64,000 bases of DNA from Dehalococcoidales bacterium (GTDB taxonomy: Bacteria > Chloroflexota > Dehalococcoidia > Dehalococcoidales > UBA2162). How positions within the stretch are numbered: position 1 is the first letter of the stretch; each line of letters begins with the position of its first letter. The DNA is taken from assembly GCA_030690265.1 (NCBI GenBank), contig JAUYHA010000081.1:1-64000 (forward strand), given 5' to 3'. Shown here one piece after another: positions 44,587 through 52,703 of this stretch. The position numbers and the translations under genes were made by a program. The notes beneath the pieces were generated by a model that saw only the letters and a list, made by a program, of their open reading frames with translations, had not been told where the DNA came from and made no database searches.

Positions 44587-45273
44587 TTACCGGTGCCATC
44601 TTCGGTTTGCTTCCTCCAGGTCGCTTGGGAAGTCAATATCTATCCAGGGATGGTCAGTAGTATATACACTGACAGGGTGTCCCTTCCCAATGAGCCGCCG
44701 GATAAGCCGTGGGAAGCTGGTATCAAGGTTGGTCCTGGCAACCTGTTCCAGCTCCTCAATCACCGCCGGAATAATCTCCGAGGAGAACTTTGCGATACCG
44801 ATGAACTCCCCATATGGTTCGTCCACATCCTTGCCAATGGCAATAACCAGGTCTTGCTGAATGACCACTCTTTCAGCTTCTTTATCTATGCCCTTCCGGT
44901 CAACTACCAGAAGTATGTCTCCTTCTTCAGCAATGACCTCACTGATAAGTTCAGACTGGAAGAGAGTGTCGTTATATTGCAAGATGAAGCCTGATTTAAG
45001 CTCATGGCGCACCAGCCATAAATTCATAGCTACGTTACAGGTTTCATAGAATGGATTGAAGATACAAGAAACCCTCCCGGCACAGAATTTCTCTATCTGT
45101 TCGGCGCCGAAACCGGTTATTACCAGTATGTCTTTAAGACCCGCCTTTTGCAAAGCCTGAAGCTGGTGGTCAAGGATAGCTTTGCCTCCTACCTCCAGAA
45201 GACTCACCGGCGTGTTCTTGGTTATTGGCAGCAAGCGGGGGCTTCTCGCTGCTGCTGTAATGACTGCTCTCAT
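44587..45273 (-). CDS. NTP transferase (phosphocholine/sugar nucleotidyltransferase-like)
   Basis: MRAVITAAARSPRLLPITKNTPVSLLEVGGKAILDHQL; NVAMNLWLVRHEL; YGEFIGIAKF. Confidence 0.85.
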   Translation of the reverse strand: MRAVITAAARSPRLLPITKNTPVSLLEVGGKAILDHQLQALQKAGLKDILVITGFGAEQIEKFCAGRVSCIFNPFYETCNVAMNLWLVRHELKSGFILQYNDTLFQSELISEVIAEEGDILLVVDRKGIDKEAERVVIQQDLVIAIGKDVDEPYGEFIGIAKFSSEIIPAVIEELEQVARTNLDTSFPRLIRRLIGKGHPVSVYTTDHPWIDIDFPSDLEEANRRWHR

Positions 45274-45276
45274 CTT

Positions 45277-46068
45277 TTAGGCTTCCACCCCGGTTATCAG
45301 GCGCATTCGGATAAAAGCACTGAGCCGGTCAATGGCGGTTACAGTGAGTACCATGACCAGCAGGGTAGTGAGCACCTCCTGGTTCTTGAATAGGCGGACG
45401 CTGGTGATAAGCTCTATGCCAATACCACCAGCCCCCACCAGCCCGAGTACGGTAGCCGCCCGAAAACTATGCTCCAGATAGTAGAAAGTGTAGCCAACAA
45501 ATAACGGTTTAACCTGGGGCAGTATACCATAATATATAGTCTGGATACGATTAGCACCAGTAGAGGCTATAGCTGTAACCAGCTCCTGGTTAACTGCCTC
45601 GATAGTCTCTGAGAAGTACTTACCCAGAGCCCCGAGGAGGTGCACCGTCAGTGCCAGAACGCCGGGGAAGGGGCCGAGACCAACCATCGAGACGAAAAGC
45701 AGTGCCCAGACAATTTCATTAACACCCCGGCAGGCGTCAAATAAGGTGCGGGTTGTCTGGTACACTGGCCGGTAAGGCATGACATTCCGGGCAGCAAAAA
45801 AAGATAAGGGTAAGGCTAAAGCCGCTCCGAAGGTAGTGCCCATAACAGCCATCTGGAGAGTCTCGCCAGCCCTGACCAAAAGCCTGCCAGTGATGCTCAG
45901 GTCAGGGGGAAACATCCGTACTACATAGTCGGCCATGAATGGAATGCCCTTGATGAAGGTAATCGGGTTGGTGTCACTGCCTTCAATTGCCCACAGGTAG
46001 ATGACAACGATACCAAGCATGACGGCTACGTGACGAAACTTCCTGCCGGGTTTGAAGGATATTTTCAT
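45277..46068 (-). CDS. phnE: Phosphonate-type ABC transporter permease PhnE
   Basis: GETLQMAVMGTTFGAALALPLSFFAARN; RGVNEIVWALLFVSMVGLGPFPGVLAL; YYLEHSFRAATVLGLVGAGGIG. Confidence 0.92.
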   Translation of the reverse strand: MKISFKPGRKFRHVAVMLGIVVIYLWAIEGSDTNPITFIKGIPFMADYVVRMFPPDLSITGRLLVRAGETLQMAVMGTTFGAALALPLSFFAARNVMPYRPVYQTTRTLFDACRGVNEIVWALLFVSMVGLGPFPGVLALTVHLLGALGKYFSETIEAVNQELVTAIASTGANRIQTIYYGILPQVKPLFVGYTFYYLEHSFRAATVLGLVGAGGIGIELITSVRLFKNQEVLTTLLVMVLTVTAIDRLSAFIRMRLITGVEA

Positions 46069-46884
46069 CTAGAACCCCCTCTTCCCGTAGAGAACCCAGT
46101 CTTCAGTTTCTCCATAGATGTCAATTATGTCCTTATCGGTTAGCTCATCGGGGGTATTCTCAACGACAATCTGCCCCTCCCGAAGCCCAACCATACGTGT
46201 GGCGTAAGACTTAGCCAGTTCAAGGAAATGGAGGCTGGCTACCAGGGTTATATTACTCTCCGTACAGATTTCAGTGATAAGATCCATAATTTCTTTCATT
46301 AGCTTGGGGTCCAGACTGGAGACAGGTTCATCGGCGAGAAGGATTGTAGAACGTTGGGCTATAGCTCGGGCTATAGCCACGCGCTGTTTCTGACCACCAC
46401 TTAAATCACTAACCCTTTTCTGAATATAGCTCTCTAAGCCCACTCTCTTCAGAGCCTCAGTGGCTATGGCAACATCTTCCTCACTAAACCTTCCCAGGAG
46501 ACTTGACAATGTAGCTACATAACCGAGTCTTCCCAGGATGACGTTCTTCAGCACTGAGGCTCCTTCCAGCAGATTAAAATTTTGGGAAATTACCCCTACC
46601 TGCCGACGTATTTGCTTAACCTCTACGGGTGGCAGAGAGGTAATTTCCCTGCCACCGATATAGACGCGCCCTTCAGTGGGTCTGATAGATAAATTTGTGC
46701 AGCGAAGCAGTGTTGATTTTCCTGAGCCGCTGGAGCCCAGAAGCACTAGGCGCTCCCCTTTATTCACCTCCAGGTTAATATCCCTCAGTGCCCGTTCCAC
46801 CTTACCTTCGTGACCGTCAGCCTGAGTTGCAGCATGTCCGGCTCTGACCGCATAATAATGACTCAGCCCTTCTATTCTAATCAT
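46069..46884 (-). CDS. phnC: Phosphonate-type ABC transporter ATP-binding protein PhnC
   Basis: LLGSSGSGKSTLLRCTNLSIRPTEG; DLSGGQKQRVAIARAI; ILLADEPVSSLDP. Confidence 0.93.
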   Translation of the reverse strand: MIRIEGLSHYYAVRAGHAATQADGHEGKVERALRDINLEVNKGERLVLLGSSGSGKSTLLRCTNLSIRPTEGRVYIGGREITSLPPVEVKQIRRQVGVISQNFNLLEGASVLKNVILGRLGYVATLSSLLGRFSEEDVAIATEALKRVGLESYIQKRVSDLSGGQKQRVAIARAIAQRSTILLADEPVSSLDPKLMKEIMDLITEICTESNITLVASLHFLELAKSYATRMVGLREGQIVVENTPDELTDKDIIDIYGETEDWVLYGKRGF

Positions 46885-46906
46885 GTCACCAACACCTTAA
46901 AGATGA

Positions 46907-47785
46907 TTATAGGTCCAGAACCTCCGCTACCTCACGAATAATGTCATAGTCGGAGTCTGTCACTTTCACGTACTTCTCAATGTCACCCCATCCTCCCACT
47001 TCGTGAATAGTTTGCTCATCCATTTCAATCAGCGCCTGTTGAATCCGGTCTTTCAGGTCTTGAGGCAGGTCTCCCCTGACAGCAATTGGCGACCCTGGTA
47101 TGGAAGACGATTCGAAAATGATTATGTTCACTTCAGGGTCGATTTGTCCCTCTTTTAGCATTCGGTTGTAAGAGGTATCGCTATCGGCTCCGGCGTCTAC
47201 CTTACCATTTTTCACCGCCAGTTCCACGGCATTGTGAGACCCGGCATAATACATGGTTGAAAAGTCATTGTCAGGGTCAATTCCGTTTTCAATCAGCATC
47301 TTTCTCGGTATCAGATGACCGGATGTGGAAGCCGGGTCCACAAAGGCAAAGGAACGACCTTTAAGGTCAGCCAGCGTTTTTATACCTGAATCTGCCCGGG
47401 TAATGATAAGGCTTTTGTAGGTCGTCTTCTTAGTGTCCCGCCTGTAGCCGTTGACAATTGCCTCCGCCCCTGCCTGTTCTACCGCCAAAATATAGGAAAA
47501 AGGACCAAACCAGGCCATATCAATGTGCTTGTTTCGCATCGCCTCTATAGCCGCCGTATAGTCATCGGTTACTTGAAGCTCTATCTTCATATCCAGCTTT
47601 CCTTCCAGGTAGTTGGCCATGGCTTCATACTGACGCAGCATCTCTGTAGCGTCGTCAGCCGGGATGAGTCCAAAACGCAGGACTTCTCTTTTCCCATCAG
47701 CCTGAGTGCATCCGACCATAGCAAATATAGATAGCAATAGCATGACGAAACCTATTTTATAGCCGAACCCTAGCGCTTTTTTCAT
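46907..47785 (-). CDS. phnD: PhnD-family phosphate/phosphite/phosphonate-binding lipoprotein
   Basis: Lipobox MVGC; LRFGLIPADDATEMLRQYEAMANYLE; MAWFGPFSYILA; FVDPASTSGHLIPRKML. Confidence 0.93.
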   Translation of the reverse strand: MKKALGFGYKIGFVMLLLSIFAMVGCTQADGKREVLRFGLIPADDATEMLRQYEAMANYLEGKLDMKIELQVTDDYTAAIEAMRNKHIDMAWFGPFSYILAVEQAGAEAIVNGYRRDTKKTTYKSLIITRADSGIKTLADLKGRSFAFVDPASTSGHLIPRKMLIENGIDPDNDFSTMYYAGSHNAVELAVKNGKVDAGADSDTSYNRMLKEGQIDPEVNIIIFESSSIPGSPIAVRGDLPQDLKDRIQQALIEMDEQTIHEVGGWGDIEKYVKVTDSDYDIIREVAEVLDL

Positions 47786-47835
47786 TTCTAACTTTTCTCC
47801 TCCTTTTTATGTAAACACTGCGGCCACAGTAGTGC

Positions 47836-48591
47836 TCAGGTATTACTGACGAACCATCTGGTTACCTCAGCCAGGTCCTGTGGCGTATCAATTTCCATCC
47901 AGCCGCCCTCGATGTCAACACTCTGCACCACAGAACCGTTATCTATCAGCTCTTGAATCATGTCAGTCATATATGCCTTCGCCAGAGAGGCAGCGTTGTG
48001 GAAAGGGGCAGTTGGGTGTTCCTTCTCCACCCGGTGATAGGCTGTCCTCATAGTCTCAGCTCCTGATTTAGTGAATTTAGCCAGCCCGATAAACTCTCCA
48101 TAAGCTTCTTCCGCACTGATTACTCCCTTGCCAATCTTTACCACCCTGCCATCTTTAACCCTGACCAGTTCGGCTTGAGAAATCGGGTGCTGGTTGCGCT
48201 CCCTATAGTGTTCAACCCAATTGACATCGGTCACCAGAGCAATATCGGCTTCACTACGGACGAGTTTCTCCACAATTTCTTTGCTGTAAATAATATCTGA
48301 ATAGGAAAAGATAAAATCGTCATTCATCTCGTCTTCAGCGCAGAACAGCGAGCAGAGGATATTATTATGCATAAAATTTGAATTCTGGTAATAGGTTATG
48401 TTGGGATAGTTGATTAGGTCACTATGGTACCCTTTTACTACCACAATATGCTCAATCCCGTTTTCTCTCAATGCCCTGATGGCTCTTTCCAGAATAGTTT
48501 GACTGCCAATTTCTAAAAGACATTTTGGTTTTTCATTAGTAACAGGCCGTAGACGATTACCAGAACCAGCCGCAACAATGATAGCTTTCAT
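47836..48591 (-). CDS. NTP transferase (phosphocholine/phosphonate cytidylyltransferase-like)
   Basis: MKAIIVAAGSGNRLRPVTNEKPKCLLEIGSQTILERAI; FSYSDIIYSKEIV; YGEFIGLAKF. Confidence 0.87.
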   Translation of the reverse strand: MKAIIVAAGSGNRLRPVTNEKPKCLLEIGSQTILERAIRALRENGIEHIVVVKGYHSDLINYPNITYYQNSNFMHNNILCSLFCAEDEMNDDFIFSYSDIIYSKEIVEKLVRSEADIALVTDVNWVEHYRERNQHPISQAELVRVKDGRVVKIGKGVISAEEAYGEFIGLAKFTKSGAETMRTAYHRVEKEHPTAPFHNAASLAKAYMTDMIQELIDNGSVVQSVDIEGGWMEIDTPQDLAEVTRWFVSNT

Positions 48592-48622
48592 AACAACATA
48601 TACTCTCCTTGGTTCTGATTGT

Positions 48623-49663
48623 TTACTTTAATACTGAAGGTAACTCCTGCCTGACCCTTTCAAAATCTTCCGGAGTATCAACCTCCGCCCAACCACCGTG
48701 AATATCAACATGCACCACAGGATAACCTTGGTCGATAAGCTCCTGAACCATGTCAGTGAAGTATGCCTTCTCCAGAGAAGGTGCCCGTTGAAAGGTTTTG
48801 GCCTGGTAATTTTGCATTGCCCATTTGTAATTAAGCTTAAGGACTTCAGCCCCCTTTTTGCTGAATTTCGCCAGCCCGATAAACTCACCATAAGCTTCCT
48901 CAGGCAGAATGAGATTTCTACCAATCCGCGTTATCCGCTCACCCTCAACCTTGACAAGCTCAGCCTCAGGAACAGGATGCTGACGACGGTGACGGTAGCG
49001 AGTCTCCCACTCGGTATCTACTACCATTGCGATATCAGACCTGTTCTGCAGCAGAAGCTCAAGCACCGTTTTAGAGTAGATAATATCTGAGTAGACAAAG
49101 ACGAATTCGGTATCCATCTCGTCTCTGGCATAAAACAAAGAACTCAAGATACCACTATTTCGGTAGTCCCTGTTTTCGTAGTATCTTATTGCAGGATAGT
49201 CGATTTTTTCTCCGCGGTATCCGCGAACCACGGCAATATCATAGATGCCACACGCCCTGAGGTTTTCCAGCCCTCTGCCGATGATGGTCTTATCACCCAC
49301 CTCCAGCAGGCAAGCTGGCTTATCCGGAATGATGGAGAGCAGGCGACTGCTTTCACCTGCGGCTACAATAATCGCCCTGACATTTCGGTATCCCCCGAGT
49401 GAGCCAATATCCAGCCCCTGGCGAGAAAGCTCTTCCAGATAAGGCTCCAAAATCTCCCGCCCGTGCTTCTCCAAAATCGCATTGGCTAATCTATCAGCCA
49501 GCTTTTCCCCCAGGTGGTCCAGGATTTTACGGTGTAGTTGCCGGCTGGTCAGAGTATTTCCCAGCTCACCAGCCAGCTTGTCATCTCCATGGCGCAATCG
49601 TTTGTGACCAGCCAAGCCCTGGGAAGTCTTAAAAGTAGCCCTGCAGATATCACAGGCAATCAT
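48623..49663 (-). CDS. C2H2 zinc finger - NTP transferase fusion
   Basis: N-terminal MIACDICRATFKTSQGLAGHKRLRHGDD (CxxC...HxxxxH), helical linker, then VRAIIVAAGESSRLLSIIPDKPACLLEVGDKTIIGRGL. Confidence 0.87.
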   Translation of the reverse strand: MIACDICRATFKTSQGLAGHKRLRHGDDKLAGELGNTLTSRQLHRKILDHLGEKLADRLANAILEKHGREILEPYLEELSRQGLDIGSLGGYRNVRAIIVAAGESSRLLSIIPDKPACLLEVGDKTIIGRGLENLRACGIYDIAVVRGYRGEKIDYPAIRYYENRDYRNSGILSSLFYARDEMDTEFVFVYSDIIYSKTVLELLLQNRSDIAMVVDTEWETRYRHRRQHPVPEAELVKVEGERITRIGRNLILPEEAYGEFIGLAKFSKKGAEVLKLNYKWAMQNYQAKTFQRAPSLEKAYFTDMVQELIDQGYPVVHVDIHGGWAEVDTPEDFERVRQELPSVLK

Positions 49664-49735
49664 CAGTGCTGAGTATAATACTGAGTTACTGATTTGTCAA
49701 GCACCCTATCGGGGTATCTGGGGAAGATTTAACGG

Positions 49736-50407
49736 CTAACCGGACTCAAACTCCTCGCCGTAGGCACGGTCTCTTATGCCCTTCCCCTTTATCGGGGCCC
49801 TCCAGTCCTCGCCGTAAGTATATTTCAGCCATCTTTCCGGCTCACTGAGAATTCTCCATTTCTCGCCCAGAAATTGAACTTCGCAATATGTTTCAAAGGC
49901 ATCAACATCAAACTTAATCGGGTCATTAACACGTTTCGTGCCATTAAGTCTGAAAAGATAAAAATCAGTGTGCTCACCACTGCGGTAAAGGGTTACCAGA
50001 TTTTCCGCCAGCCCCAGATAAAACCCCTCTTTAGCCAGTATCGCTTCACAGCTAAGGAGTCGGGGTAAGTCTTCAGCACAAATGGCTAAGTCGGTATCCT
50101 CGTCATAGGAGATTATGTCATGGTCACGGTAAGCTCCCAGAAAGGTACCAAACATCAGCCAGAACCGGATACCCTCTTTATCCAGGATTCGCTTGATATC
50201 CAGCAGATTTTTTTCGGCAATTCCCATATTCATAGTTCGGCCAACTGGGGTAGCAATCCAAGGACGTGAGTAGTAGCCTCCGGCAAAAGGGTCAAGTCCC
50301 TCCTCAAATCGAGCTATGGCATAGAAGCGGTAAATCCTCTCCAGAACTTTCCTGACGTAGTGGGAGAGCAAAATGCTTCTGGCGATTTTCACCATAAGTT
50401 TGTTCAT
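49736..50407 (-). CDS. LicD-family phosphotransferase
   Basis: LDIKRILDKEGIRFWLMFGTFLGAYRDHDIISYDEDTDLAI (LicD nucleotidyltransferase-fold core). Confidence 0.88.
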   Translation of the reverse strand: MNKLMVKIARSILLSHYVRKVLERIYRFYAIARFEEGLDPFAGGYYSRPWIATPVGRTMNMGIAEKNLLDIKRILDKEGIRFWLMFGTFLGAYRDHDIISYDEDTDLAICAEDLPRLLSCEAILAKEGFYLGLAENLVTLYRSGEHTDFYLFRLNGTKRVNDPIKFDVDAFETYCEVQFLGEKWRILSEPERWLKYTYGEDWRAPIKGKGIRDRAYGEEFESG

Positions 50408-50418
50408 TATAATCCCCA

Positions 50419-51717
50419 TTATTCTATTGCTATTGCCTTAAAAGATTGTCCCATAATGCAGACTCCCTCATCAGCCGATGGTATATCACGACCGGGACGG
50501 AAAGGTTGCGACTCAAGAGTAAACGAGCAGGCATTTTCCCAATCATCAGTTCGTAATTCTTCTGCGCCTTCGCCATAATAGCCTCGCAGCCAGATAGAAT
50601 ATTGCCCGCTGGTGAGAATCAGAGGTCCAATTTCAATTCTTATTTTTCTAACCTTTCTATCGAAGTAAATGCCATGATAAGCTCCCGATGAGCCGATGGA
50701 AACACGCTGTCCCCACTGGTTATGAATATAGTATGATATACCATGTTTATCCTTTAAAGGTTTACCAGCAAGCTCAACAATCAGGACTATTTTGTCGTTA
50801 TATCGAAAGTGATTAGAGCGCTCACCTTGCTCATTCAGCATTTCAACCCGGCTAAAATAGAAGCTCTTATCCTTGATCTCTTCAGGGTTTCTGTCTCTAA
50901 GGCAAGAAGAAGATTCCTCAAAAAGCTTTAATTGGTTCTGTTCATAGGCTCGAACCACCTCATCGGCGGTGCCCTTTTTCACTATCTGTCCGTTGTCCAG
51001 CCAGATTGCACTCTGGCACAAGCTGCGCACTGCCCCCATGTTGTGGCTGACAAAGAGTATCGTCCGCCCCCCCCTGGCAACCTCCTCCATTTTACCCAGG
51101 CACTTCTTCTGAAAGGCTATATCCCCGACCGCCAGCACTTCGTCTATCAGCATAATCTCAGGCTCAAGATGGGCGGCGACAGCAAAGGCAAGCCTCACCT
51201 GCATACCACTGGAATAACGTTTCAACGGCGTATCCAGGTATTTTCCAATCTCCGAAAAAACGATAATATCATCGAATTTTCTCTCGATTTCCCGCTTCCG
51301 CATACCCAGGACGGCACCGTTAAGGAAGACATTCTCTCTACCGGTAAGCTCTGGGTGAAACCCGGTGCCAACCTCCAGCAGGCTCGATATCCTGCCGTGA
51401 ATTTCAGCGAACCCGCCGGTAGGTTCGGTAATACGGGCTAATATTTTCAGCAGCGTCGTCTTTCCTGCCCCATTCTTGCCGATGATGCCCAGCACCATGC
51501 CTTCTTCTACCTCAAAGGAGACATCCTTCAGCGCCCAGATGACATCTTCTTCATCACCGTTCTTGAAGCTTGTCAGACTTCGCAACCTGGATAGATTCCT
51601 TACCGGTGCGCTTAGCCCTTCCACTATGGTCTCGCGGATAGTTTTATAGGCTTTTTCCCTGGCACCCACCCGGTAACGTTTGGATAAATTAGCAACCCTG
51701 ATGATTGGCTCACTCAT
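50419..51717 (-). CDS. Polysaccharide ABC exporter ATPase (Wzt-like) with C-terminal carbohydrate-recognition-type domain
   Basis: GIIGKNGAGKTTLLKILARITEPTGG; KRYSSGMQVRLAFAVAAHLEPEIMLIDEVLAVGD; about 160-residue beta-rich C-terminal extension. Confidence 0.92.
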   Translation of the reverse strand: MSEPIIRVANLSKRYRVGAREKAYKTIRETIVEGLSAPVRNLSRLRSLTSFKNGDEEDVIWALKDVSFEVEEGMVLGIIGKNGAGKTTLLKILARITEPTGGFAEIHGRISSLLEVGTGFHPELTGRENVFLNGAVLGMRKREIERKFDDIIVFSEIGKYLDTPLKRYSSGMQVRLAFAVAAHLEPEIMLIDEVLAVGDIAFQKKCLGKMEEVARGGRTILFVSHNMGAVRSLCQSAIWLDNGQIVKKGTADEVVRAYEQNQLKLFEESSSCLRDRNPEEIKDKSFYFSRVEMLNEQGERSNHFRYNDKIVLIVELAGKPLKDKHGISYYIHNQWGQRVSIGSSGAYHGIYFDRKVRKIRIEIGPLILTSGQYSIWLRGYYGEGAEELRTDDWENACSFTLESQPFRPGRDIPSADEGVCIMGQSFKAIAIE

Positions 51718-51875
51718 CGTTCGCCTCGCAAAGGGCAAAGAGCATAGCGCAAAGCGAATCTGCAATATCAAATAATTTTTCAGCTATATCTATCGCCATT
51801 TGCCAAATTTCCAGATCCTGAAATCTAAACTTCACCATTTTTATGCTCTCTGCTCCATGCTCTCCGCGCTATGCC

Positions 51876-52703
51876 TCAAATAACATCAGCAAAATAACGC
51901 TCCGTACGCTTAAAATATAATGCTCCAGAAATGAATACTATTACACTCACCAGGGTAGACACCAGGAGCATCTGAGTCGGGAAGGCGACCGTCCCCAGTA
52001 AAGCGGAACGGAACCCCTCAATAATTCCAGCCATAGGATTTAGTGCGTAGATAAGGTGGTATTTCTCCGGTATCATCGAGACCGGATAGACTACGGGAGA
52101 AGCAAACATCCAGAACTGCACCAGAAAGGTGATTGTGTATCTAATGTCCCGGTAGTTGGCATTTAAGCCAGCCAGCAACATACCAACCCCACTGGCAGTG
52201 AACATCATCAGGATGACCAGCAGTGGCAGGAAGAGAGTCATGATAGTAGGGTATATCTGATAGTAAAGCATCATCCCGATTAAGATGATAAAGGCAATGC
52301 CGAAGTCCAGCAAAAAAGCCAGAGTAGGAGCAAGAGGGGCTATCAGGCGAGGAAAATATACCTTGGATATCAGAGCACTTTCCTGAATAAGACTATTACC
52401 TGAAGAGACTGTGGCATTGGCAAAGTATGTCCAGGCTACTAGAGCCGAGTAATTGAAGATAGGGTAAGGGACGTTATCAGAAGGGACTCTGGCAAAATTG
52501 CCGAAGAAGAGGGTAAAAACAACCATCATAAAAAATGGCTGGATGATAGCCCACAGCCCGCCGAGAACCGTCTGCTTGTAGCGTACTTTTATATCGCGGC
52601 TAACCAGAATGTAGAACAGGTCTCTATATTCTTTCAGCTCTTTAAAATCAATTAGCTGCCAGCCCTTTCTGGGCTTGATAACCAGATAAGGTTTCGCTTC
52701 CAT
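51876..52703 (-). CDS. Polysaccharide ABC exporter permease (Wzm-like)
   Basis: YRDLFYILVSRDIKVRYKQTVLGGLWAIIQPFFMMVVFTLFFG; YALNPMAGIIEGFRSALLG; start taken at MEAKPYLV. Confidence 0.92.
   Translation of the reverse strand: MEAKPYLVIKPRKGWQLIDFKELKEYRDLFYILVSRDIKVRYKQTVLGGLWAIIQPFFMMVVFTLFFGNFARVPSDNVPYPIFNYSALVAWTYFANATVSSGNSLIQESALISKVYFPRLIAPLAPTLAFLLDFGIAFIILIGMMLYYQIYPTIMTLFLPLLVILMMFTASGVGMLLAGLNANYRDIRYTITFLVQFWMFASPVVYPVSMIPEKYHLIYALNPMAGIIEGFRSALLGTVAFPTQMLLVSTLVSVIVFISGALYFKRTERYFADVI

Follow-up and report, generated by a model that had tools for sequence, protein, structure and literature searches.

The window is a 64,000-nucleotide stretch of a 2.44-Mb metagenome-assembled genome (MAG) from an uncultured Chloroflexota bacterium, with 91.7% completeness and 7.3% contamination. 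All of the genomes that we compared it to are also MAGs, so gene absences are soft rather than final. Nine genes lie on the minus strand at positions 44587–52703 of the window, as a first-pass annotation of the sequence had reported. In the order of transcription, they encode Wzm and Wzt, the permease (51876–52703) and the ATPase (50419–51771, with its real start probably at 51717) of a polysaccharide exporter; a LicD-family phosphotransferase (49736–50419); NTPT1 (48623–49663), with a C2H2 zinc finger, a helical stretch, and a nucleotidyltransferase-like domain, a predicted autoregulator; NTPT2 (47836–48591), a predicted PntC-like CTP:phosphonate cytidylyltransferase; the lipoprotein-type solute-binding protein PhnD (46907–47785, lipobox Cys26), the ATPase PhnC (46069–46884), and the permease PhnE (45277–46068) of a phosphonate-type ABC importer; and NTPT3 (44587–45273), a stand-alone nucleotidyltransferase-fold protein. 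All three NTPTs pass the cut-off of the Pfam profile PF12804. The wzt and licD genes overlap by 1 nt. The gaps that follow are 72 nt (licD to NTPT1), 31 nt (NTPT1 to NTPT2), 50 nt (NTPT2 to phnD), 22 nt (phnD to phnC), 0 nt (phnC to phnE), and 3 nt (phnE to NTPT3); the last two were already described as tight junctions. The GC content has no step here, and a recently transferred island of odd composition was rejected.

The conserved unit is smaller than the nine genes first put forward. It is a six-gene cassette, NTPT1-NTPT2-PhnD-PhnC-PhnE-NTPT3 (44587–49663), and it recurs in two further MAGs from Dehalococcoidia/Chloroflexota (locus L029 in genome G041 and locus L030 in genome G846). PhnD is 70–72% identical in these MAGs, and PhnE is 86% identical in L029 and 81% identical in L030. 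The gene order in L029 is the same as in the window; in L030, NTPT2 precedes NTPT1. In the three importer cassettes, the six genes are kept and the flanks vary. Across 393 genomes of the class, just two have a PhnD of the cassette type (over 600 bits, with the next match at 166 bits), and both of these lie within the cassette. Because the six-gene unit recurs in L029 and in L030, it is more than a chance grouping. Neither of these two MAGs has LicD, Wzm, or Wzt beside the cassette.

The three subunits of the importer, encoded in one operon, pass their NCBIfam cut-offs (PhnD, 277 vs. 261 bits for TIGR03431; PhnC, 277 vs. 266 bits for TIGR02315; PhnE, 285 vs. 217 bits for TIGR01097). In a residue alignment, PhnD keeps all of the residues that bind the phosphorus oxyanion (Y76, Y123, S153-T154-S155, and H184). 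Its nearest solved relatives are the phosphite-binding PtxB proteins, whose specificity comes from a Tyr208/Asp22 cap (PMC5700983, PMC12718374). PhnD has Ser232 and Ala43 instead, beside the invariant D203, and the Ser/Ala pair is the same in all three cassettes. Because the PtxB cap is missing, phosphite is disfavored as the ligand. The cap with which the E. coli protein binds 2-aminoethylphosphonate (AEP; D205/T14/E177) is missing as well, with S232/A43 and T204 (Asn in G041) next to D203; other PhnD proteins use alternative caps (PMC5700983). The Arg223/Thr247 pair of GpxB corresponds to Thr204/Ser232, as read via E. coli E177/D205 with GpxB itself outside the alignment. Furthermore, Tyr97 of NTPT2 takes the place of the amine-binding Glu104 of Tde-PntC. 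Since the E. coli cap and this glutamate are both missing, the ligand may differ from AEP. (A structure prediction for PhnD from three sequences had a pLDDT of 43 and was not used.)

NTPT2 keeps the catalytic Arg/Lys/Lys of PntC: R13, K23, and K155 correspond to R15, K25, and K153, which are required in Tde-PntC (Rice et al. 2019, PMC6697681). D99 and D235 are intact as well, as are the residues of the GxG(T/S)Rx(4-8)PK motif, save that the T/S position is N12. The predicted model of NTPT2 (pLDDT 95) has PntC structures as its top six Foldseek hits; in the PDB, LicC is its second match, and sugar NTPTs share the fold, with E-values close behind PntC. In the tree, NTPT1 and NTPT2 fall within a clade (support 95/99) with NTPTs that are fused to PEP mutase, from Nitrospirota, Nitrospinota, Chloroflexota, and one proteobacterium; LicC and Tde-PntC lie outside it. 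From the residues, the tree, and the modeled fold, we predict that NTPT2 is a PntC-like CTP:phosphonate cytidylyltransferase. Activation of sugar 1-phosphates by NTPT2 was rejected on the tree and the fold.

The first-pass annotation counted three nucleotidyltransferases, but only NTPT2 has an intact catalytic set. The catalytic lysine is gone from NTPT1 and from NTPT3, which has a valine instead (V23) and keeps the arginine. NTPT3 is monophyletic across the three importer cassettes (support 100/100) and its best match in the PDB is LicC; it is a candidate accessory protein, sensor, or altered enzyme. We also noticed, by eye, a resemblance to ribbon-helix-helix proteins in the N-terminal extension (about 50 residues) of the archaeal NTPTs and those of locus L032; this had no Pfam support (E up to 10).

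Comparing the loci with an NTPT1-NTPT2 pair showed that what follows the pair is exchanged. In three loci, the pair is followed by PhnDCE-NTPT3. In two (L025 and L028), it is followed by a PEP-mutase module, EamA-radical SAM-[PEP mutase::NTPT]-phosphonopyruvate decarboxylase. And in four (L024, L026, L031, and L116), it is followed by an MFS gene of the GlpT/PgtP type (organophosphate antiporters). The best explanation is that the importer, the PEP-mutase module, and the MFS carrier are interchangeable suppliers to one NTPT1-NTPT2 core. The importer occupies the exact slot that is filled in relatives by genes for making a phosphonate, and this suggests scavenging of an outside phosphonate. This exchange is the strongest evidence that import would lead to CMP activation. 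In the PEP-mutase module, activation might be the job of the fused NTPT, which would make the role of the pair uncertain. The tree of the pair is poorly resolved and cannot order the swaps; the best tree has three changes. In Asgard archaea, Thermoplasmata, Bathyarchaeota, and Planctomycetota, the same NTPT core is accompanied by MFS carriers, which suggests that the strategy is wider.

Searches for phosphonate synthesis and breakdown extended the reported lack of pepM, C-P lyase, and phnX in the window to whole genomes. Neither the window's genome nor G041 has any match to PEP mutase (TIGR02320) or to PhnJ. For PhnX, the window's genome has only HAD-type matches, at 49 bits or less (cut-off 220). 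The genome with L030 has a single match to the PEP-mutase family (PF13714), which we rejected as a PEP mutase: it scores as the methylisocitrate lyase PrpB (297 vs. 126 bits). The claim that the importer feeds CMP activation instead of phosphorus catabolism has held up, given these searches, the PntC-like NTPT2, and the relatives in which the pair accompanies PEP mutase and phosphonopyruvate decarboxylase.

A promoter lies just before NTPT1 (49664–49700, minus strand), with a -35 box (TTGACA, 49695–49700), a 17-nt spacer, and a -10 box (TATACT, 49672–49677) that is 8 nt before the ATG. The palindrome CTCAGTATTATACTCAG (49669–49685), which resembles an operator, overlaps the -10 box. Promoter and embedded palindrome precede NTPT1 in all eight of the NTPT1-bearing genomes in which the start of NTPT1 is sequenced. 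The zinc finger of NTPT1 (49589–49654; C4, C7, H20, and H25 with a QGLAGH core) is invariant in seven orthologues, with a match to PF13912 (E = 1.7e-4) that is under the Pfam cut-off. NTPT1 is probably a regulator, because it combines this finger with a nucleotidyltransferase-like domain without the catalytic lysine and with the promoter-palindrome in eight genomes. We propose that it most likely acts via the palindrome as a repressor of its own operon, with the phosphonate or its CMP form as the signal. NTPT1 would then be a new kind of bacterial one-component regulator, in which a dead nucleotidyltransferase senses the ligand and a C2H2 finger acts on the palindrome over its own -10 box, whether the cassette is supplied by importer, PEP-mutase synthesis, or MFS carrier; we give this even odds. 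Alternatively, the three NTPTs might form one multi-subunit cytidylyltransferase, with the Lys-less chains as structural subunits, the finger as a protein-interaction module, and an unrelated regulator on the palindrome. Consistent with this, Lys-less NTPTs always occur alongside an intact NTPT2, and the same type of finger is N-terminal in further Dehalococcoidia proteins without an obvious regulatory role. However, the palindrome is directly before NTPT1 even in L030, whose swapped order puts NTPT1 in second place. Also, the exact palindrome occurs once in the 2.44-Mb genome, and the genomes have no second site, as expected for a local autoregulator, apart from two matches with one mismatch each that fall within ORFs and that we put down to chance. 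We find the multi-subunit enzyme rather doubtful, and it contests only the regulatory part of our proposal.

Overall, we propose that the locus encodes a regulated, scavenging form of phosphonate tailoring, from import to CMP activation to surface transfer, under the control of NTPT1 (probability roughly two in three). PhnDCE would take up a small phosphonate that other organisms have produced (a phosphate monoester is less likely); NTPT2 would join it to CTP to form a CMP-phosphonate, as PntC does; and a phosphotransferase would then put the headgroup on a surface molecule. Comparison of the loci gives good support to import for CMP activation. The gene content, the module exchange, the catalytic and pocket residues, and the conserved promoter-operator are seen in the sequences; the ligand, the direction of flow, the acceptor, and repression are inferred.

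The transfer here would most likely be carried out by the adjacent LicD, onto a glycan exported by Wzm/Wzt, or otherwise by a CDP-alcohol phosphotransferase, onto a lipid. LicD matches PF04991 with 39 bits (cut-off 22.6), its DEDTD and YGEDWRAP motifs are intact, and it is the only LicD found in its genome. The first-pass annotation had made LicD, Wzm, and Wzt parts of the system and looked to a conserved PhnD-LicD-nucleotidyltransferase neighborhood. That conservation does not hold: the one LicD of G041 is on a different contig, and we found none in the genome with L030. Wzm and Wzt belong to the host's glycan cluster, outside the conserved cassette. LicD is separated from NTPT1 by the promoter-palindrome and may therefore be regulated apart from the cassette. 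Nevertheless, a role for LicD in phosphonate transfer is plausible, because a related MAG (G849) has LicD in a PEP-mutase operon (L134:8057–12464; LicD-[CTP_transf_like::PepM]-Ppd-Fe-ADH). We consider LicD a candidate terminal transferase in the window's genome only.

Could the importer bring in a phosphate monoester instead, such as phosphocholine, phosphoethanolamine, or glycerol phosphate? The NTPTs would then make donors like CDP-choline or CDP-glycerol for LicD, in a Lic pathway independent of LicA. The similarity of NTPT3 and NTPT2 to LicC would fit, as would the alternative MFS suppliers, which are from the GlpT/PgtP/UhpT group, and a CDP-glycerol glycerophosphotransferase-like gene near L030. 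But the same NTPT pair accompanies PEP mutase and phosphonopyruvate decarboxylase in L025 and L028, the clade of NTPT2 contains PEP-mutase fusions and not LicC, and the GpxB pair is replaced in PhnD, so we think this unlikely. Ordinary phosphorus scavenging, with PhnDCE taking up phosphate, phosphite, or phosphonate as a phosphorus source beside sugar nucleotidyltransferases that belong to the glycan cluster by chance, seems more improbable still. The kinship of PhnD to PtxB speaks for it, and picocyanobacterial PhnD1, where the genome lacks phosphonate catabolism, is regarded as a transporter of phosphate (PMC10284923). Against it stand a six-gene unit that is kept in three MAGs with differing flanks, Ser/Ala in place of the phosphite cap in all three cassettes, and an NTPT pair that swaps PhnDCE for PEP mutase; PhnJ was not found, and the PhnX matches are all below the cut-off.

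The usual view is that phosphonate importers serve phosphorus nutrition and that bacteria with phosphonate on their surface have made it themselves. If our proposal is correct, then some bacteria acquire their phosphonate headgroups rather than making them; phnDCE without C-P lyase or PEP mutase would have an explanation beyond the uptake of phosphite or phosphate; and environmental phosphonate would have a non-catabolic sink. Also, the zinc-finger nucleotidyltransferase, together with its unique operator, would be a directly testable sensor for the ligand. Our literature search, which covered a minority of subscription journals, turned up neither phosphonate tailoring fed by an importer nor a regulator that joins a zinc finger to a nucleotidyltransferase.

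Among known systems, the importer resembles PhnDCE, PtxABC, and GpxBCD in its three subunits and in the phosphate-oxygen-binding residues of PhnD, but its cap differs from those described for phosphite, AEP, and glycerol phosphate, and it sits between NTPTs, with catabolic genes not found. The Lic pathway of Streptococcus and Haemophilus (LicA-LicB-LicC-LicD) has the same sequence of import, cytidylylation, and LicD transfer to a glycan. In contrast, the importer here is a PhnDCE-family ABC transporter, NTPT2 lies apart from LicC in the tree, and we recognized no LicA-type choline kinase or LicB-type transporter among the cassette and flanking genes. The G849 operon, from the same class, also encodes LicD with phosphonate activation, but it is for de novo synthesis of a hydroxyethylphosphonate type, with another cytidylyltransferase fold and no importer. 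The Pnt pathway (PepM and PntC, with surface transfer; PMC6697681) shares activation with CTP by a PntC/LicC-like enzyme, and PntC is the nearest fold to NTPT2. It differs in that the cassette has an importer in place of PEP mutase and has extra Lys-less NTPTs, one of them with a zinc finger. Because G000 (the window's genome) and G041 have no PEP mutase and the genome with L030 has only PrpB, we view the cassette as working like Pnt, yet as a salvage variant of it rather than a classical member.

All nine ORFs named in the first-pass annotation are present on the minus strand, within a large polysaccharide cluster. PhnD, PhnC, and PhnE each score above the curated NCBIfam cut-off, and Pfam confirms LicD, Wzm, Wzt, and three nucleotidyltransferase-fold proteins (NTPTs). 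(In the same glycan cluster, a transketolase is split into two adjacent genes, window:52711-54484, with an epimerase, a radical SAM protein, and a GHMP-type kinase encoded upstream.) The window covers the initial 64 kb of contig C150 (123 kb), which belongs to a 2.44-Mb MAG with 91.7% completeness and 7.3% contamination; absences of genes are soft throughout because of MAG incompleteness. Its kinship set and its relatives in the Dehalococcoidales and Dehalococcoidia suggest that the organism belongs to the Chloroflexota, class Dehalococcoidia.

Judging from sequence comparisons, the conserved unit is a six-gene cassette (NTPT1-NTPT2-PhnD-PhnC-PhnE-NTPT3; 44587-49663, minus strand), not nine genes, because this type of PhnD and the gene order recur elsewhere. 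In the sampled order, a PhnD of this type occurs otherwise only in genome G041 (74% over the region that matches); two further weak matches have unrelated contexts. The G041 locus (L006/L029) has the identical gene order, with protein identities of 62–86%. A third copy, from a groundwater MAG (L030), has NTPT2 and NTPT1 swapped. Among 393 genomes of the class, PhnD scored above 600 bits only in the window and in the L030 organism (G561); the next score was 166 bits. So the cassette recurs, but LicD, Wzm, and Wzt are missing from the G041 contig, which weakens the proposal of a nine-gene system.

We scanned a genome collection (one genome per species, 84,980 species) with an alignment of NTPT1 and NTPT2, and 58 loci matched. 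In Chloroflexota, we considered NTPT1-NTPT2 pairs (NTPT2 alone if NTPT1 is truncated by the end of its contig) and the same-strand genes downstream. The pair is followed by PhnDCE-NTPT3 (module A: the window, L029, and L030); by an EamA protein, a radical SAM/SPASM protein, a PEP mutase::NTPT fusion, and phosphonopyruvate decarboxylase (module B: L025 and L028); or by an MFS protein of the GlpT/PgtP/UhpT group (module C: L024, L026, L031, and L116). The L027 locus runs off its contig. The EamA protein is similar to TIGR03340, "phosphonate utilization associated". In L025, the PEP mutase and the decarboxylase fall slightly under the NCBIfam cut-offs (314 vs. 320 bits and 306 vs. 313 bits), and we take the module as putative phosphonate synthesis because the two occur together. 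Module C also lies beside NTPT genes in Thermoplasmata, Bathyarchaeota, Heimdallarchaeota, and Hodarchaeota, and in Planctomycetota it accompanies NTPT together with a MetE-like gene. A tree of the pairs, whose branches are weak, requires three module changes. The best evidence for PhnDCE delivering a phosphonate to the NTPTs is this common core with interchangeable suppliers, PEP mutase among them: we put the probability that PhnDCE feeds the NTPTs at roughly 0.85, and the imported ligand is likely to be a phosphonate. The exchange of supply modules thus gives strong comparative support to the central idea of the first-pass annotation, import for tailoring.

That annotation had also seen no pepM or C-P lyase in the window, and this held genome-wide: neither PEP mutase nor PhnJ was found in the window's genome or G041, soft as absences from MAGs are. 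PhnX gave just HAD-type matches, far under its cut-off. (The search covered these three.) A PF13714 match in the L030 genome is PrpB and was rejected as a PEP mutase.

NTPT2 is probably a CTP transferase and is the cassette's predicted enzyme. Its best sequence match in PDB is PntC-AEPT of Treponema denticola, followed by LicC. With its AlphaFold model (22 sequences, pLDDT 95), Foldseek ranks 1–6 are PntC structures, and inositol-phosphate, sugar, and LicC transferases follow closely. Changing Arg15, Lys25, or Lys153 of T. denticola PntC to alanine leaves <10% of activity (Rice et al., PMC6697681), and each of these residues has its equivalent in NTPT2 (R13, K23, and K155). Three NTPT-fold proteins stand, but three enzymes are less credible, as PntC lysines are replaced in the other two: NTPT1 has Ala and Arg at the two lysine positions and NTPT3 has Val at Lys25. 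Across orthologues, the Lys25 position is E, A, V, or N in all NTPT1 and V in all NTPT3. In an 88-row tree, NTPT1 and NTPT2 group with PEP-mutase-fused NTPTs (clade support 95/99); LicC and T. denticola PntC fall outside; both are partial sequences on long branches.

PEP mutases with a C-terminal NTPT domain are found at L025:4286-5935, L028:3477-5126, L050:9116-10795, L058:6183-7892, L121:8343-10091, and L127:8680-10341. The catalytic Arg is gone from these domains, and in many cases the Lys as well (both in L025, L028, and L127; the Arg in Nitrospirota); the vicinity often also encodes an intact NTPT as a protein of its own. NTPT2-type genes adjoin a MetE-like (Meth_synt_2) protein in ten loci (L045, L046, L047, L048, L052, L054, L056, L124, L125, and L069), with an adjoining MFS carrier as well in Planctomycetota. 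In the Asgard archaea (Heimdall- and Hodarchaeota), NTPT3-like genes with a common N-terminal domain of ~60 residues are divergent from NTPT2-MFS pairs (L037:8973-9875, L040:8975-9871, L041:2726-3625, and L042:9000-9902).

We somewhat favor a regulatory role for NTPT1. Its N-terminal C2H2 finger (C4, C7, H20, H25, and a QGLAGH core) is invariant in seven orthologues, and matches zf-C2H2_6 under the cut-off (E = 6e-5 to 1.7e-4). Of the promoter-like sites in 10.7 kb, the best is 8 nt upstream of the NTPT1 ATG. A TTGACA-17-TATAAT promoter precedes NTPT1 in eight loci (the window, L024–L027, L029, L030, and L116, where the spacer is 16 nt), and in all eight the palindrome CTSAGTATWATACTSAG spans the -10 box, with one mismatch in L029. 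The DNA farther upstream is not alike. In L030, where this site is found between NTPT2 and NTPT1, the palindrome thus tracks NTPT1, not the operon start. With up to 2 mismatches, it does not occur elsewhere in 1.6 Mb of collected loci. A scan of ten whole genomes found it once in each genome where the start of NTPT1 has been sequenced; the only extras were two one-mismatch matches inside ORFs, which were set aside, and the reversed pattern, used as a control, gave a single pair of hits. On this reading, NTPT1 would autoregulate, with its dead nucleotidyltransferase domain as sensor. Related fingers are found on other Dehalococcoidia proteins, so the finger alone is no proof of DNA binding; QGLAGH/QGLRGH-type fingers begin coiled-coil-like proteins in L178, L180, and L181 (genome G336) and L179 (genome G032). 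Separately, NTPTs at L032:9845-10744, L036:9854-10747, L038:6892-7782, and L039:2240-3142 have an N-terminal extension of ~50 residues that by eye resembles a ribbon-helix-helix DNA-binding domain, with no support from Pfam. Should the resemblance hold, fusion of NTPTs to DNA-binding domains would have happened repeatedly.

That LicD is the final transferase in the window's genome, as had been proposed, is possible but slightly doubtful. It is the only LicD found in its genome and keeps catalytic-type motifs. Also, LicD travels with phosphonate activation in the class, because an operon in the genome that carries L024, G849, joins LicD and PEP mutase. This operon (L134:6983-12464, on C69, a different contig from L024) encodes epimerase-LicD-[CTP_transf_like::PEP mutase]-phosphonopyruvate decarboxylase-Fe-ADH and looks complete, of hydroxyethylphosphonate type; its PEP mutase and decarboxylase exceed the cut-offs. 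However, LicD is not conserved with the cassette: G041 has one distant copy, and a genome-wide search found none in the L030 genome. In L121, L122, L050, L065, and L055, a neighboring gene is instead CDP-alcohol phosphotransferase-like (by similarity to the PF01066 match of L055), so a lipid would be a real alternative acceptor.

We aligned the three cassette PhnDs with PtxB, HtxB, and E. coli PhnD, with oxyanion contacts and caps assigned from published structures (PMC5700983, PMC12718374, PMC10284923). The oxyanion residues are kept (Tyr76, Tyr123, Ser-Thr-Ser 153-155, and His184) and the described caps are replaced, which makes phosphite a less likely ligand than a P-oxyanion whose tail is larger and polar. 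The cassette proteins have Ala43/Ser232 in place of the phosphite-specific Asp22/Tyr208 of PtxB, and unlike E. coli PhnD and GpxB, they have neither the AEP cap nor the glycerol-phosphate residue pair. Import-fed tailoring of this kind would make the cassette a novel form of phosphonate tailoring.
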